Assembly (NCBI RefSeq): GCF_040371545.1
Contig: NZ_AP029048.1
Location: 1 to 64,000, forward strand
Length of the DNA: 64,000 nucleotides
Source: Synechococcus sp. M16CYN
GTDB lineage: Bacteria; Cyanobacteriota; Cyanobacteriia; PCC-6307; Cyanobiaceae
Direction of reading: 5' to 3'
Shown here: positions 8,870-38,564 of the stretch, in pieces
How positions within the stretch are numbered: the first letter of the stretch is position 1
Layout of the letters: every line of letters starts with the position of its first letter
Program-made: the position numbers and the translations under genes
The notes under the pieces: generated by a model
Told to the model about the DNA's origin: nothing
Database searches by the model: none
Seen by the model: only the letters and a program-made list of their open reading frames with translations

Positions 8870-9227
8870 CTGATAACCCTACAAGTGACCAAATTCTGCC
8901 AGTCTCTACACAATCCGTCCCAATTAAGCAAGGTGATCGGCGGTTTGCTGGTACAGCAACGTGGCCACAACTGCAAAACTGGTCATTACCTTTATCTATA
9001 CATGGGCCAGGGCAAATAATTGCGTTGACGTCAAAATGTCACAATGAAATCGATTGTCAGGGCGGGAATATGACATCCGCATCAACTAAAGTTAACGCAA
9101 TGGCTGTGGTCGATCAGTCATAACTAAAGGCATCCCAAACCAATCTAGATGATATAGAGGATGCAAGGGCTTATTCATTTTGATCGGTTAAACAATTCAA
9201 TCGACATTGGTATATGGACCGGACCTG

Positions 9228-9372
9228 TGCAAAAACCCTGACTAACACAGCTGTCAGGGAGGTTACGACGGTAAGCGGGTTTCTTCCCTTCACTAGAGTC
9301 ACAGAACCTATGTCCAGGGCTCTTGCCGCAGGTTGAGATACGGAAGTCGCGGTGCTCCACTCTCGATTCTCG
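9228..9372 (-). ncRNA. Candidate small RNA with intrinsic terminator
   Basis: The minus strand has a -10-like TATTAT around 9374-9379, followed by about 140 bases richer in GC than the surroundings, ending in a perfect 7-bp hairpin (CCCTGAC, 10-base loop, GTCAGGG at 9236-9259) and a T5 run (9231-9235). This is the layout of an independent small RNA gene. A 67-codon frame overlaps it, but it has no family resemblance. I could not match it to 6S, SRP, tmRNA, RNase P or Yfr1 by eye. Confidence 0.45.
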
Positions 9373-10105
9373 TCCCATAATACAACACAGCCATCTACAA
9401 GACTCTGCAGATAATTAATCTTGCTCCTGATGGGTTAGGTATAAATAAAAACTTGTTCAAACGTATCCAAGACCAACTAACCGACGCTATTTTACTCACA
9501 ATGTTGATCACGGAACTCCTGAGGAAAATAGAAGAGTGCTTCTCATTATATAGCTCATTTTTTTACGTCAGCAATGTCTCACCCATATGAGAATTTTCAC
9601 ATTGTTCTTTATTTGGAAGACTGCACTATCATTGCAAATTTGTCTAATTAGATAAATTCAAATGTGACTCAAGTTTGGAAGAATGCCTTAACAATTTTAC
9701 AATAAACAACTGCCTTAGAAAACAATCAACGCTAAATAAAAAACAGTAGTTAGTTTTATTGAACACTATATTTACATACGATTAAATAATTATATTATGT
9801 GCCTAATTAACCTCAAATAGATAGTAAATTTACCGTTCAGTTATATATGATTAACAACAGGCTTTACATCGCCAATGTGTAGAAAGTGATCCCAGCATTT
9901 GCAGTGAATCCTGTGGCTATCTTAATCGTTAAAAGCTAATAATATCCTATTAACTAATAGATGACTTTTCGCCATCGTAGAAAGCAAATAGATCTCCAAA
10001 ACTGATATAGCCAGTTACAGACTACTCTCAATTATCAGTGTTTTGTCGTTAACTAGCTCAAATTAGACCTAAGGCAGTACACAACATCAGTAAGCAATAA
10101 TGGCT

Positions 10106-10315
10106 CTATTCAATATTTGGGATCATTGCAGGATAACGCTTCCGATTTAACTCTACTGAATCTCCCATGAGGTGCCAGGTAGAGGAGCTCAGGAATCTTG
10201 CGTATTTACTAGCGCTTCGAATACGAGCAAACAGCACTACTAGTAGAACGGTACTGCAACACAACAGTACAAGATTTAGCAGCAAATCACTCTTAATCTT
10301 AAAAGAGTCGGGAGC
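10106..10315 (-). CDS. Possible small single-span membrane protein
   Basis: An open frame of 69 codons from the ATG at 10315 (MAPDSFKIKSD...), with a well-formed hydrophobic segment of about 18 residues (LLLNLVLLCCSTVLLVVLF) flanked by a basic RIRSASKYAR stretch, as in a small inner-membrane protein with a cytoplasmic tail. An upstream in-frame ATG at 10342 would add nine residues. I do not recognise the family. It lies in a gene-poor region, so it may also be chance or a remnant. Confidence 0.35.
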   Translation of the reverse strand, partial: APDSFKIKSDLLLNLVLLCCSTVLLVVLFARIRSASKYARFLSSSTWHLMGDSVELNRKRYPAMIPNIE

Positions 10316-10656
10316 CATTATATCCATCGCTTTGCAGTCAAACATGTTGTGCGGCTCAGGGGCGGTTTAAATTGGCTACACTCTTTCTTTCCACCAGTGT
10401 TGGCTCAGCGCCTTATCCAGCGGCAATGGTGTTCCACAACCGCTCAAACCAATTTTGATTAAAATGATCGTGGATGGAACAGCCAGGTTTGACCAAGTCG
10501 CTTTTCTGAAAGGCAGAGAATTGAGTGATCTTTTAGTAGCAGCCTTTAGTGGTAATCAATAGTCTCTTGACGGTCTTCAGACTTTGCAGAAGTCCCGATC
10601 TTGTGGTTGCAACATCTTTTGAATTATTATCTAAAGTAAACGAACCCTCACATTAC

Positions 10657-10749
10657 TTAAAGCAGTTTGATTCCCTTTAAGAGCTTAGTAAGTACGAAGG
10701 CAAGCACTAAGCCTGAACCGACTAATCCGAGATAGATACCAATACCCAT
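10657..10749 (-). CDS. petL: Probable cytochrome b6f subunit PetL
   Basis: A 30-codon ORF with ATG start that reads as one transmembrane helix beginning MGIGIYLGLVGSGLVL and ending LTKLLKGIKLL. Length, a single membrane span right after the start and the basic KGIKLL tail fit PetL, the small peripheral helix of the cytochrome b6f complex (about 30-32 residues in cyanobacteria). No clear ribosome binding site is visible. PetL sequences are short and variable, so this assignment rests on pattern rather than on invariant residues. It is the only gene I would call real in the middle of the 3.2 kb gap. Confidence 0.6.
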   Translation of the reverse strand: MGIGIYLGLVGSGLVLAFVLTKLLKGIKLL

Positions 10750-12076
10750 ATGAGAATAAAGAGACGACCACCCATTAGATCAGAAATTGAATAGAAAATG
10801 CCCTGATACTGATAAGGTTTACAAATTGTCGATTATTTGGATTCAGATGGATTCAGATTGGTCGGCTAGTATCTTTCCCCTTTTTAATCTCGACCCCGGG
10901 CAAACGGGTTGTAAAATTCTTCATGAAATTAAATCGTCTCCTTCACACTGGTTTCAGCCTTAAAAAATGTGATGAAGTCGAAAGCTACCCCCATCTTGAA
11001 GGCGAAAGGCCTAACGGAATCTCCATGCCATTTAATTCTCTGTTTTAGCCTACTAAAGTCGACATCAAGAACTCCATAAGTATATGAGTCTCTCGTGGTC
11101 ATCCGCTTGCTTAATTTTAAGTCCTATGATGCGAAGCCATATGCAGAAGCAAACCACTGACAAAGACATTTAAAGGAGCCGACGCCACAGTTCTAAAAAC
11201 CGCACGTGTCGGAAAGGATGTCGCTATTCCTTCAACCCGCGATTAGAGCATCTGTTAAATCAGTCGATGACGATAAAATAATGTTACGAAGCCTAGATTA
11301 AGAACACATTCATTGGTGTCGAAACACCAGAGCAGAAAAGCCTTACAACGATGTTACAAACACAAAGCATTCGCGATTCACAATGAGTGTGGCCGTTATT
11401 GAGTCACTATTACCTGTATCCATGTGTGGCATGTGTGGTAGTAAGCCAAATTCGGCTGCAGAAACAGCCAGGTTGATCAGCTGTAAGATTGTTAAATTTA
11501 TTGCTCGCACAAGAAATCATACGATGACAACAAACACATTAAACGCATTACAATCATCTTAATTGAAGATTATGCTTTGAGTTTGGTTAGAAGAGGAAAA
11601 ACAATTGCAGACTAGGGAGGCCGTAAGAGGAATAAATTAGACGAATAATTTCAGGCTTCGCAGTCAACACAATTGCCGATTTGAAATATCGTTAGCGAAT
11701 ATCTTAAGCATTTTATGATTCTTTACGAAGCTGATAGCTCAGCGTGGAAAGTTTACAGTCACTAATTTACCTATAAATAAGAAATTTATAACGATAAGTA
11801 ACCACCAAATTCTTATACACATCTGAGCTCTAAGCATCATAGTTTAACTTCAAGAAGTTAAGCCCGATACGTTCCGAATACCTTTGGCGCTCCTGGTAAC
11901 AACAATACACTACCAGCACAGTGCTGCTGAAACAATTAACTTCTCATGACATTGGTCCATATGAGCCTCTTCTTGAGTATCGGTCGATTATGTAGCGAGA
12001 GCTCAAGAATAGCTTGAATCCCTTCCTCCTAAAGAACTGAAAAATCCAAGATAATTACAGATGACCTAACAACGAC

Positions 12077-16339: not shown

Positions 16340-17012
16340 GAGCCGAGATTTACTTGCTTTTGTAATCGGGACCTTAATCTTGATCAGTGGGTCTTCCGCA
16401 TGGGCTTCGCCGCTAGAACAAAGATTGAGCCTCTGGCCTGAATGGACCCTGCCGGCTCCTTTAACTCGCCCCTCCAGTAGAGACGACTTAGTTTATCCGG
16501 AGTGGTTCACAGGTTGCTGGCAGGTGAAAAGTGTCGATCTGGATTTACCCAATCAGCCGCCCGTTATTCACGAAGCTCGTTTTCTCAGGGACTCTAAAAA
16601 TCGGCTGGTTGGGGATCGTGCCTTCAATGCAAGTTCTATAGGTCGAGCCCTACTTGGCGATCAGATTTTGCGTATTGAAGACGACCCCACATCATCGGGA
16701 CGACAGATGACACAGTTGAGAGGAAACCGATACCTGGAAACCACTGTCATTGGTAGACGACAGTTCTCTCCTGATGCTGACATCTTCTTAGCTGATGAGT
16801 TGGTATTGCAGATTTTTCATACTACAGAGCTACCGAGACTAAGCCGAATAGAAACCCTTAGCCGTTACCAACGCTGCGGCGCCGCAATCTGTGCTGAACA
16901 ATGGCAAGCTAGCTACGCTCCTCCTGGACAAAGCTTGCGGGGCCAAGCCATTAGTAACCATCACTACCAACTACAGTTCACACCTCTTCCAATGTCCGCT
17001 CCATCAACTTAA
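16338..17012 (+). CDS. DUF6816 protein, exported
   Basis: Protein of 224 residues from the ATG at 16338, with a signal peptide ([23 protein letters not shown]) and a mature region carrying LVYPEWFTGCWQVKSV, seen in the DUF6816 family of cyanobacteria and plastid lumen proteins. It probably acts in the thylakoid lumen or periplasm; function unknown. A GTG at 16317 would add seven residues before the signal peptide, and I prefer the ATG. Start codons of this gene and of the divergent CRR7-like gene overlap in one CATG. It converges with the GST gene, overlapping by 35 bases. Confidence 0.75.
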   Translation: MSRDLLAFVIGTLILISGSSAWASPLEQRLSLWPEWTLPAPLTRPSSRDDLVYPEWFTGCWQVKSVDLDLPNQPPVIHEARFLRDSKNRLVGDRAFNASSIGRALLGDQILRIEDDPTSSGRQMTQLRGNRYLETTVIGRRQFSPDADIFLADELVLQIFHTTELPRLSRIETLSRYQRCGAAICAEQWQASYAPPGQSLRGQAISNHHYQLQFTPLPMSAPST

Positions 17013-17703
17013 GCTCAAGTTGATCCCGCCATTGAAAGAGAGGTTGAAGTTTGGGATGATCCCTTAAACCAGGCACACCTTTTCCAGCCAAGACAGTGCC
17101 CGCAGAAGACGGAAAACAAAGTAGCGAAAGTTGTGCAGCAACTGACAAATCTGCAAGCGACATGGTTTCTCCCACTAACCATGGGCTCTTTTGTACTAAA
17201 GATGCTAACTGCTCCAAGCTAGCTAGCAGATCAATTCGTTCATTTTGATTTACCAATTCAGCAACATCGCTGATCCATTTACCGGGAAAAGCACCCATCA
17301 TGGTGCGTATAGGATCTGGCACATCGCCGGGTAGTAGTGCGACACGCAATGTAGCGTCTACGGCCACTGCTTGAACTAGAGCAGAACGACATACTGTCGC
17401 TAAGGTGGTATCAGCCCAGTCCTCAATCAAATGCACCTGAGCAGCCTGGCGCGTATCCACAGGGATAAGGATCGGATTTGGCTCTTGTCGTTCAAGATGC
17501 CGGACGATTGCCGAAGAGTCGGCCAGCACGGCATCACCATCTACCAACATGGGAACTTGGCGCTGGCCCGACATTCGAAATACAGCCAACTGACCTACTC
17601 CCGGTGTAACTTCGACAATTCGATAGCTCAGCCCTTTCGCTTGAAGTACCATCCGAACCTTCAAGCAGAAAGCGGAATGGCGAAATTGATACAATTCTAA
17701 CAT
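16978..17703 (-). CDS. Glutathione S-transferase family protein
   Basis: Cytosolic GST fold: an N-terminal thioredoxin-like domain (LELYQFRHSAFCLKVRMVLQAKGLSYRIVEV, then QVPMLVDGDAVLADSSAIVRHLE, with the cis-Pro VP and the glutathione-binding DS pair) and a helical C-terminal domain ending near residue 240. Substrate unknown. Start ATG at 17703; a GTG directly before it is in frame. The 3' end overlaps the convergent DUF6816 gene by 35 bases. It is followed upstream by the 2.3 kb AT-rich desert. Confidence 0.85.
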   Translation of the reverse strand: MLELYQFRHSAFCLKVRMVLQAKGLSYRIVEVTPGVGQLAVFRMSGQRQVPMLVDGDAVLADSSAIVRHLERQEPNPILIPVDTRQAAQVHLIEDWADTTLATVCRSALVQAVAVDATLRVALLPGDVPDPIRTMMGAFPGKWISDVAELVNQNERIDLLASLEQLASLVQKSPWLVGETMSLADLSVAAQLSLLCFPSSAGTVLAGKGVPGLRDHPKLQPLFQWRDQLELKLMERTLEEV

Positions 17704-19972
17704 CACCGAAGGTCCCGAACCACAAGCTCGGCAGAGTAGCCGGTAAACTCGAAATACAGGCTCCCTGTGGAAGTTCTTGACAAACCAAAGACTAAGTTCA
17801 ATGAATCTTGCACCTGCTTGTTATCTAATAATGTTGACTGCTGATATAAATATGCAAAAAATACAGCCTAATTGCGAGGTTGGAGAATTTTTCAATCGAT
17901 TACTCTCAAGATTTACTATGCATTGAAAGCTTAAATTAATATTTGCTATAAATAGCGCAGTAACTCAGAAGTAATAAATTAATAGAGGTCAATAACGAAA
18001 AATCTTTATTAAGATAGAGGCAATTTTTTTCAAAAAGTAATCCGCCTTCATTTAAATTAGCGATAATTAATGATCAAAAGATCGTTTCTTCAACGGTTAA
18101 TATTTGCAAATTAATACTTAGAACAAAACATTAACCAAAGAAAATATAATGCAACTTTTCTATTTAATTACTATAATATACTTATTGTTTATATCAGTCC
18201 TACTTAGGATATTACTTAAGAACAAAAATTCTAATGATACTAGTTTTTTACAAAAAGAAGCAAAATAAGATTGATTAAACTATAGATACAGATTGGTTAA
18301 AAGCTCATTGTCTGAATAAATAGATAATAAATTTTACCATAAAAAATGGGTTAATAAACTTCTTGAAAATAGCACGTAAAAATATTACAATAAAATAAAT
18401 TAAATATGAGTTAATGAAAGAACTAATTCTTCTTTTTTTAAAAAAGACTAGAATCATAAAAAATAATTAAACTTGAAAAATTTTTTGTCTGATTTCAGTG
18501 ATCAAACTTATTCTTAAGTTTAATTACTTAAATCAGTAAGCTACTTTTTGATTAAAAGACAAGAAAAAGAGACGGTTAAATAATAAATAGTAATATAATC
18601 TAGATAATTATTAATTTCATCTTTTTTGTTGCATTTAAATATAAATTCAAAAAATTTTAATAAAATTTAATGTAATTTTGCTGTACACTTTAGATAATTT
18701 TTAATGGCTTTTGATTTATATTAAGTAACTTCTTTCGGACTATCTAATTGTGTTTTTTACTGATACATATATAAACTTTGAATTAAATTAGTTTTATAGG
18801 TACAGCCAGAAATTGTATCATTTAAAAATAAAAGCAATTGCTAAGGAATTTTATTATACAGTAGATTTCCAAGAGGAGAATTATATACATAATTCATAGT
18901 GTGAATAAAATTTCTCTCTTTAATAATTACAACTATAATTATTGCTCAAATATTTTATTGCTGTTAATTCTGCTAAAGCAATTAAGGTCGACTCTAAAAT
19001 ATAAAAAACTTACATTAAAATTAAGGACTATAAAAAATATTTAAAAGCAAAGTAAATAAATGCATTTCATCTATAGTCAAGTAAATTTATTTGCAAAAAT
19101 TAAATTTTACTGAACATAATATCATTTTGTAAACTTCATTTAAATAAAGTTTAATAATTACTAAAAGTCTGCTTATTATTACTCAAAAATTGTGAAAAGT
19201 AAGTATAAAAAGATAGTGTTTCTATTACAAGTAGTTATATCTGTAAATATAAAGTTATAGTTTTATAATGCGTGCATAAGTTTTATAAAAAGTTTATTTT
19301 TATGAGTATTAAATTAATCTTAACTGTTCTCTTAAGTAATTTACTATTAGATGTAGTTATATATATCATATCTATTCTCTAATCAAGCAACTCAATTGAT
19401 ATAGTAACTAAAAAATGAGGCTCAAAGGTAATTTCAAACATATGAATGTAATTATCATACATATTTAGCAACTAATTATCTAATCAAATAATGAATAAGA
19501 TTGAATTTATTCATGATATAAAAACAGTAAAATTTTAATTAACTAAGCAATTTTTTGTGTTTTTAGACTAATTTCTTTAAAAGTAAAATTACTAACATCA
19601 ATAAAATTTGGATTTTTAAATCAAATTAAGTTATTTTAATCAGATTATTTAATCTTTTTAATTATTCTATCTTGAAGAGATCTTCTATTTTAAGTAACTA
19701 TAATTTGTATGTTGAGCACCAAATTATAATCAGAAACCAAATACTTATCTAAAAAGTTGGGTTACATATTTCTTATTAATTAATAAATAAAATTTTATTT
19801 ATAAAATCTTGCAACTTTTGCAAAGCTCTTAGGCACAGTCTCAGTACTTTTAATGTTAACATTAAAACGTAATATATTTTATTTGTATGATTTATTTTGA
19901 GGCTTGAAAAATCCAGATCTCAAACTTGTTTAAACTCCTTATAATCTTTAAAATCAAATACGATAATTAACT
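17704..19972. other. Extremely AT-rich gene desert, 2.3 kb
   Basis: From about 17.8 kb to 19.97 kb the sequence drops to roughly 12-25% G+C in the 60-base lines I counted, against about half in the neighbouring genes. Stops are dense in all frames; the longest ORF with a start I noticed is 39 codons (18149-18268, plus strand), which is expected by chance at this composition. There are homopolymer T and A runs but no long repeat, tRNA or hairpin with a GC stem. The edges, at the GST start and the DUF751 start, are abrupt. Confidence 0.8.
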
Positions 19973-20179
19973 ATGAGACAGTTTTTTCTCAATGTCACTC
20001 GTTATCCGCGTTATTTAGTGACATTCACACTCGGGGTGATGAACTCCGTTGCGAAGCCCCTTATCCAGCGATTTAATAATCCGATCACCGCAGTGGCCCT
20101 GATCGGGGCATTGATCAGCGGTTGTATCAGCCTTTCGTTAGTACTCCGTGCCATGGTGTATGGAGTTCCGATGGCGTGA
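19973..20179 (+). CDS. DUF751 (Ycf33-like) small membrane protein
   Basis: A 68-residue protein of the DUF751 family, related to plastid Ycf33. It shows the basic N-terminus ([21 protein letters not shown]), the [15 protein letters not shown] segment and a C-terminal membrane helix ending RAMVYG. Function unknown. ATG start directly after the AT-rich desert. Its stop overlaps the rbfA start as TGATG, so the two are translationally coupled. Confidence 0.85.
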
Positions 20180-20574
20180 TGGCACAAAAACGTCGGATTA
20201 AGCGGATAGAGGCCCTAATTCGCAAGGAAATCAGCGAACTACTGATCAATTACATTAATGATGAACGAGTGCATAAGGGCATTGTAAGCGTTACATCGGT
20301 TGAGATAACTGGAGATCTACAGCATTGCAAAATATTCGTGAGCATTTTTGGTGAATCAAGCGACCGCAACGAAGTTTTAGGGGGGCTGAAGGCCGCGAGC
20401 GGTTACTTGAGAGGTGAACTCGGACGGCGGCTGCAGATGCGTCGCGCACCGGAAATGAAGTTCCAGCTTGATCGGGGCTTAGAAAAAGGAACTTCCGTAT
20501 TAAGGCTGCTCAACAAACTTGGGGATCAACGTCAAAAACGCGGTGATATCTCTCCTGGAAGTGATGAGCTGTAA
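20179..20574 (+). CDS. rbfA: Ribosome-binding factor A
   Basis: RbfA assists late maturation of the 30S subunit and the 5' end of 16S rRNA, and is needed in the cold. The type-II KH-like fold is recognisable: [18 protein letters not shown], then [25 protein letters not shown] and the [10 protein letters not shown] segment. The ATG at 20179 overlaps the DUF751 stop, giving 131 residues; a frame extension upstream lies inside DUF751 and is rejected. The 3' end overlaps the GH3 gene start by 11 bases. Confidence 0.93.
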
Positions 20575-36816: not shown

Positions 36817-38490
36817 TCCGATTCTCGGCATAGCAAAAAATTCTGGTTATAGCAGCCAGTCCAGGTCTAACCAATTTATTGAGGTTACTCTACGATTTAT
36901 CACTATCCACCACACAAAGGTGGTTGAGGTTCTAGGTCCTTAGTTTTTTAGTCAAAGAAATTTAGTGAATTTAAATATAGAGATAACTTAGATTCGATAC
37001 CTTTAATAAAATATACATGACTGACCGAGTATACGATTGCTCTATATCGCTGAAAAGAAGCTGTAGCTCAGATTGTCATCTGCTGTGATTTAGTAGCTTG
37101 GATAATAGTTCAACTGATACCGAAAGACTGATAGCTAGCTCATACAAACTGGTGATCACACCCTATCTGATTTTAATATGCTTCATTCGGTGTCTGTTAG
37201 GATCTAAGTCGCACTTGTATGATCGTAACAGCTGGACTCAAGTACCTACCATTTCTTAATCAGTCTCTCTACTTGTTGTCCTTAAAATTTACATAGTAGC
37301 TTTACCTAAGTAATTATTAGTCTAGGTTAATAGTTAGTAATGAAGCTAATATATGACGATAGCCAAACTTGCTCGGTTAGGTCCTGTATTGAGCCAAAGT
37401 GATCTCTTTGTATATGGTTAAAAAATAAAAATGAAACCATAAAATTTATATCTAGCCTTGTCAATAGATAGTTTTAACTATTCTTAGTAAGTTTAAATAT
37501 TTTGCTATTTAAGATGCTAGTTATTCTACACTTTTTATAACATTAATAAAATTATAAAAAACTTAAGTAGCACACTATGAAGATAGCAATAGTAAAAAAT
37601 AAGAACTAAAATCATATAAAATAGTTATCTAAATACTGAAACTTTCTGATAAAAATCAGAAATATTAATCTAATTCTAAATATTATATTTATTAAATTTA
37701 ATAAACTCAAATCTTGATAATCTTGCTTAATTAATAAAATAAACCAATTAATATTTTATATTTCTATAAATTCTAATCTTACAGTGAATGTACTTAACTG
37801 ATTATTTTCTAAAGTAAGAAAATAATTATGAATAAAAGTAAAAAATTTCAGTTAAAAAACTGAAATTTTTCTGAATTTTTATAAGAGCTTTTAAATTTTG
37901 TAGTTAAATTTTTTACATAGAAAAAGACTATACTGAACAAAAAATAACGATACTGATTAATAGATTATAATATTTTACTTGAAAATGATAACAAAAGTTA
38001 TACGGTACTATCTCTTAATCCTAGAAATTAGAAAACACCAAGACATTTTTATTATATTTATGTATAGCCTGAATCCAAGGGTATTTTTATATTGGCAAAT
38101 CTCATTATTACATATTCTCAATTAAAATTTGAAATACAAAATAGTTTATTGATAAAATAGTAACACTAATCTAAATCAGAATATATTTATATGTTTTTGC
38201 CAATGCTAGTTGCTTTCTGTTGTGTGACGTGTCAGAAATAAACACTTATATTCTATCTTCTTAAAAAGGAATATACATCAAGTCTTTGCTTAAATTACTA
38301 ATTTTTCTTGCTTGCAGCCATGATAACGAGGTAAATTAAATAAGTTATTTTATATATTAATGGTTTTTGCCATTTTATTCTTTATCTAGACCTATATTAA
38401 GCTATTAAATAAGGCTCCTCTCCGATCTTAAAAAAAATAATTAAAAATATATGGAAAATAAATTACAAGTTAATCATTTATGTCTCCAAC
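36817..38490. other. Second AT-rich gene desert, 1.7 kb
   Basis: After about 36.95 kb the sequence becomes very AT-rich (7 G/C in one 60-base line counted near 37.7 kb), with stops in all frames and no ORF above 60 codons. No tRNA, repeat array or element end is seen. It ends sharply at the psbD terminator. A 12-base stem-loop-like TTTCAG/CTGAAA repeat occurs near 37.85 kb (a TTTCAGTTAAAAAACTGAAA palindrome), which is followed by TTTTT and could be a terminator on the plus strand. Confidence 0.75.
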
Positions 38491-38513
38491 AAAAAGCCTC
38501 CCCAAAAGGAGGC
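38491..38513 (-). terminator. Intrinsic terminator of psbD
   Basis: Minus strand: GGCCTCC, loop TTTTG, GGGAGGC-type stem of 6-7 bp followed by TTTTTG. It lies 50 bases after the psbD stop and shows that psbD is not followed by psbC here. Confidence 0.88.
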
Positions 38514-38564
38514 CGGATTACTTTGGAAAACAATTAAAGAATTTGCTTTATGTTGATATTTAAA

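Follow-up and report, generated by a model that had tools for sequence, protein, structure and literature searches.

An AT-rich desert between intact genes

The window analyzed here is a 64,000-nucleotide stretch of DNA from Synechococcus sp. M16CYN, in which a glutathione S-transferase (GST) gene (positions 16978 to 17706, minus strand; Pfam GST_N_3, E = 6e-18; 81% identity in G006) is separated from a DUF751 gene (19973 to 20179, plus strand; Pfam DUF751, E = 1.6e-22) and the adjoining rbfA gene (20179 to 20574, plus strand; Pfam RBFA, E = 6e-31) by 2,266 bp (17707 to 19972) of about 22 to 23% G+C. The initial annotation had described an AT-rich desert between intact genes of ordinary composition, and this description holds: positions 17704 to 19972 have 22.8% G+C, with individual 60-bp lines at 13 to 32% after a fall from about 50%, compared with 48% for the window, and the neighboring genes are intact, with GST, DUF751, RbfA, and GH3 domains found in them. 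The desert had been taken to run all the way from the GST start to DUF751, which is correct for most of this length. However, the first ~75 bp past the GST start (17707 to 17780) have an ordinary composition and are made up of ancestral spacer, so that the true desert, the putative decayed insert of about 22% G+C whose content is unrecognizable, covers about 17780 to 19957.

It had also been stated that no open reading frame (ORF) exceeds 39 codons, which was incorrect. We found ORFs of 50 codons (ATG start, minus strand, 18305 to 18457), 49 codons (TTG start, 17777 to 17926), and 47 codons (GTG start, 18901 to 19044) in the desert, the longest of which lies under the 95th percentile of dinucleotide shuffles (78). 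A 3-base periodicity is absent from the desert (1.06, compared with 8.7 for nagZ), and a tRNA search of the same DNA found none. The initial annotation had named a conserved RNA, recognizable by profile search, as a finding that would speak against its reading; an Rfam search of the desert with a threshold as lax as E ≤ 1 gave no match. The earlier statement that there is no repeat is right in that no strong one was found, but weak repeats are present; terminal repeats are not clear.

The closest among the relatives tested is G006 (2,234,828 bp), which we take to be Synechococcus sp. CC9902. The source assembly, with contigs of 1,940,073 and 17,326 bp, agrees in size and kinship with CregCyn, a cyanobacterium of reduced genome that lives in symbiosis with the dinoflagellate Citharistes regius and has a 1.94-Mbp chromosome, a ~17-kb plasmid, and a protein repertoire one-quarter to one-third below that of its free-living relatives, and Synechococcus sp. 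CC9902 is named among its close relatives (PMC11150560). GC3 is 0.486 in the source genome and 0.607 in G006, and we therefore conclude that the source genome is under AT pressure. Its short intergenic spacers have 46.7% G+C; thus, the deserts are not ordinary spacers. The compact intergenic regions invoked in the initial annotation are a property of the free-living relatives but not of this reduced-genome symbiont.

A gain at a recurrent insertion site

Across the 104 genomes of the family that have both a GST and a DUF751 gene, the spacer between the two is 130 bp or shorter in 88 and exceeds 250 bp in 12. Nearly all congeners in which the genes are adjacent, including the closest ones, G006 and G014, have a spacer of 56 to 60 bp, and therefore the 2,266 bp found here did not arise by decay of an ancestral gene. 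By this comparison of sequences, the desert is a lineage-specific gain. At least 12 other genomes carry 0.3 to 4.1 kb between GST and DUF751, with unrelated cargo, and judged from these genomes the spacer is a recurrent insertion site, one that is new to us. The long spacers measure 4,086 bp in G001, 1,852 bp in G301, 1,662 bp in G022 (L103, 2888 to 4549), 1,660 bp in G321 and G306, 1,468 bp in G273, 1,442 bp in G040 (L124), 1,233 bp in G046, about 640 bp in G117 and, by alignment, also in G076 and G164, and about 560 bp in G198 and G210, with no convincing gene in those of about 640 and 560 bp. Over all inserts, the cargo consists of a ParA-like ATPase, an Mrr-ParA fusion, a 2OG-Fe(II) oxygenase, a metalloprotease-like protein, or uncharacterized proteins; some inserts have no gene that could be called with confidence, and no function is common to all of them. 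A Pfam search of 7 insert proteins found no recombinase, and there is no tRNA at the site. Two congeners, G022 and G040, carry related fusions of an Mrr-like endonuclease and a ParA-like ATPase (457 and 410 amino acids, respectively) at this same GST-DUF751 site.

The left end of the desert region matches the congeners' spacer (nhmmer, E = 1.4e-11), and positions 17707 to 17764 (CATCACCGAAGGTCC..CGGCAGAGTAGC) align with its 56 to 60 bp as retained ancestral GST-DUF751 spacer. Directly after it, at 17765 to 17779 on the plus strand, lies the best match to a DUF751-start matrix, CTGTGGAAGTTCTTG compared with ATGCGGGAGTTTTTC, which we read as a vestige of the original DUF751 start; it sits 24 nt after TAGC, compared with 27 nt in uninserted genomes (shuffle P = 0.0055). 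At the right end, ATACGATAATTAACT (19958 to 19972, plus strand) precedes ATGAGACAG and is, by matrix score, a degraded form of the motif CTGCRATAACTG; its score is reached by 134 of the 37,090 15-mers of other AT islands (top 0.4%). The motif or a near form of it lies 15 nt 5′ of the DUF751 start in 12 long-spacer genomes from three genera, and in nearly all of these DUF751 codon 2 is AAA or AGA, compared with CGG or CGC in uninserted genomes. Codons 2 and 3 of the gene studied here are AGA CAG, where uninserted genomes have CGG/CGC GAG (ATGAGA versus ATGCGG). A good motif is missing in G022, G040, G296, and G072, and thus the genomes with an insert do not form a single uniform class. Left vestiges at the ancestral 27-nt offset are retained in G001 (ATGCGGGAGTTTT) and G198 (CTGCGGGAGGTTGTC), with P = 0.001 for each, and a left DUF751-start vestige is not significant in G046, G301, G321, G311, and G117. 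Both junctions of the desert resemble those of other long-spacer genomes in short, partly degraded matches, and because the matches are short, the desert probably, but not certainly, belongs to that class. With its former upstream region now lying at a distance of 2.2 kb, DUF751 may still have a promoter in the 15 to 60 bp immediately 5′ of it, and GATAAT within ATACGATAATTAACT could be the -10 box of that promoter.

Other deserts and a decay series in the same genome

A long empty stretch, which the initial annotation had considered unusual, is commonplace in this genome. A 464-kb sample of it contains 41 AT islands, 13 of which are at least 1 kb long, at 23 to 34% G+C, whereas in G006, over 400 kb, most AT islands occur in clusters and all have at least 30% G+C. 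When collinear gene pairs were compared, several source-genome deserts were found to occupy the sites of G006 genes. Detectable gene remnants are kept in gaps of 33 to 40% G+C (8870 to 12076, 448022 to 449653, and part of 423017 to 424543), and they are undetectable or marginal in gaps of 25 to 27% G+C (36817 to 38564 and 328144 to 329465), even though the relative has genes there. The AT islands are the end of a decay series that starts from recognizable pseudogenes and is found genome-wide, and 8870 to 12076 is an early stage of it. In that region of the window (40% G+C), two pseudogenes, of genes encoding 466 and 408 amino acids in relatives, were recognized by tblastn and nhmmer. A second desert in the window, at about 36817 to 38564 between intact genes, has 27% G+C with a minimum of 16%; its G006 counterpart is 3,259 bp long with ORFs of 441, 340, and 224 amino acids, none of which is detectable here.

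The dinucleotide signature of the desert between GST and DUF751 is nearest to that of 328144 to 329465, which faces a G006 gene for 421 amino acids. Searches of the desert against all of the other inserts by tblastn and nhmmer gave chance-level matches only, and no residual similarity was found to known cargo, to phage DNA, a comparison proposed in the initial annotation, or to plasmid DNA. The 17-kb plasmid of the same genome (47% G+C) gave no match and was rejected as a source. Because there is no residual similarity to cargo, phage, plasmid, or this plasmid, decayed content cannot be shown, and the former cargo of the desert cannot be recovered. The deserts were also rejected as copies of each other, as blastn matches between them at 57 to 65% identity are compositional and do not indicate homology.

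Among 147 gene pairs with a spacer of less than 150 bp in G006, 5 have a spacer of more than 500 bp in the source genome. One of these lies between the convergent rsgA and ybaB genes, where positions 278470 to 279669 of the chromosome (L042) are 1,200 bp of 19% G+C; in all 29 relatives compared, the two genes are no more than about 35 bp apart, with no insert. Positions 373491 to 374633 (L047), 1,143 bp of 32% G+C, correspond to a 15-bp spacer in G006 and are, on this comparison, a further lineage-specific gain.

Origin of the desert

The reading that we favor, with a probability of about 0.78, is that DNA acquired between GST and DUF751 has decayed to leave the desert, now at an AT-biased neutral composition; this merges two options of the initial annotation, mutational decay and a degraded foreign insert. 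The insert, presumably carrying genes, would have entered in one step at or beside the 5′ end of DUF751, where unrelated inserts of 0.3 to 4 kb are found in many marine picocyanobacteria. On the left, the former spacer would have been kept together with the opening codons of DUF751, and on the right a complete DUF751 would have received a new segment upstream of it. After the shift to host-bound symbiosis, the insert would no longer have been maintained, and AT-biased mutation would have driven it to about 22% G+C, wiping out its content. Its decayed status is suggested by composition and by the sister sites rather than by homology, and equally decayed gene sites of the same genome likewise give no homology to the functional relative. 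Insertion need not depend on the DUF751 site, because the rsgA-ybaB spacer also gained 1,200 bp. The desert is real but mostly ordinary.

Several other origins have to be weighed. A decayed insertion sequence or transposon copy from an early transposition burst in a young symbiont would differ from acquired DNA now in decay solely in the identity of the insert. IS-rich genomes are reported in young symbionts (PMC4285135), and the gain between rsgA and ybaB is a second lineage-specific one, but a genome-wide search for DDE_Tnp_1 and Transposase_mut found no protein of either family, no deserts are credibly copies of one another, and the lack of clear terminal repeats also counts against such an element, though decay could have removed both transposase and repeats; we consider this origin unlikely. 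Still less probable is a tandem duplication of DUF751-rbfA-nagZ whose left copy has wholly decayed, despite a close agreement in size: 2,208 bp separate the left vestige from the real DUF751 start downstream, and the DUF751-to-nagZ block of G006 measures 2,202 bp. With decay-aware scoring in both orientations, the desert scored 101 against this block, compared with a shuffle mean of 87 (standard deviation, 16), nhmmer matched the left end only, and in other genomes with this left vestige the cargo is unrelated.

We see very little room for an ancestral gene that decayed in place between GST and DUF751. Other deserts of the source genome do occupy G006 gene sites, but the 56- to 60-bp spacer in almost all relatives, the closest included, largely refutes this origin here, unless the long spacer were the ancestral state and had disappeared on many occasions. 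A functional AT-rich element, whether a nucleoid-binding region such as the structural element offered by the initial annotation, a replication origin, or an unannotated RNA, is equally improbable, as the desert sequence is wholly missing from relatives, Rfam gave no match at E ≤ 1, dnaN is 236 kb away, and many deserts of like composition occur elsewhere in the genome; a promoter-like scan gave 29 sites, compared with 18 ± 5 in shuffles, a weak excess that has little meaning at such an AT content. An assembly or amplification artifact is barely credible. The DNA behind the genome had been amplified from single host cells, but the hybrid long-read assembly was backed by the recovery of all cyanobacterial sequences from two other host cells (PMC11150560), similar deserts lie at many unrelated places, and both ends of this one have meaningful junctions. 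The initial annotation had tied a short spacer at this locus in close relatives to assembly error; the spacer is indeed short there, but it shows a gain instead.

Tycheposons of Prochlorococcus are small mobile elements that bring varying cargo to fixed chromosomal sites, use tRNA genes, and carry a recombinase. The inserts at DUF751 are like them in their varying cargo at a fixed chromosomal site and unlike them in that neither a tRNA gene nor a recombinase is seen there. The genomic islands of marine picocyanobacteria (PMC7522525), including those of CregCyn (PMC11150560), similarly hold acquired genes of varying content between core genes. In contrast to these islands, the DUF751 site is a single spacer at the 5′ end of one gene that receives one to a few genes, and no tRNA or recombinase was found at it. 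Reduced symbionts such as Serratia symbiotica SCc are known to contain large AT-rich intergenic remnants left by ancient pseudogenes (PMC4285135). The source genome resembles theirs as a symbiont genome in reduction whose long, AT-rich noncoding stretches have no genes that can be detected; however, the decayed DNA described here was gained in this lineage rather than inherited as an ancestral gene, and it lies in a mildly reduced cyanobacterial genome. The AT-rich deserts of symbionts can therefore be fossils of gained DNA, besides dead ancestral genes, and a single genome offers a decay series that begins with a recognizable pseudogene and ends in sequence of about 20% G+C that has no features left.

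More tentatively, and with considerable doubt on our part, the 5′ end of DUF751 might be a specific integration site of undescribed small elements in marine picocyanobacteria of at least three GTDB genera, elements that would rebuild the gene start and supply its upstream segment (CTGCRATAACTG..ATGARAGA), and of which the desert would be a fossil. If this were a true integration site, attachment at a gene start would join the known routes by which genes flow in these organisms.

As a dispersed repeat, CTGCRATAACTG was rejected, since its remaining occurrences sit in unrelated contexts. Around 1500 to 1545 of L140 (G004:C56), there are three tandem copies of the 15-bp unit CTGCGATAACTGGCG; the 12-mer of the right-end motif at DUF751 also occurs within this unit, which is probably a coincidence.
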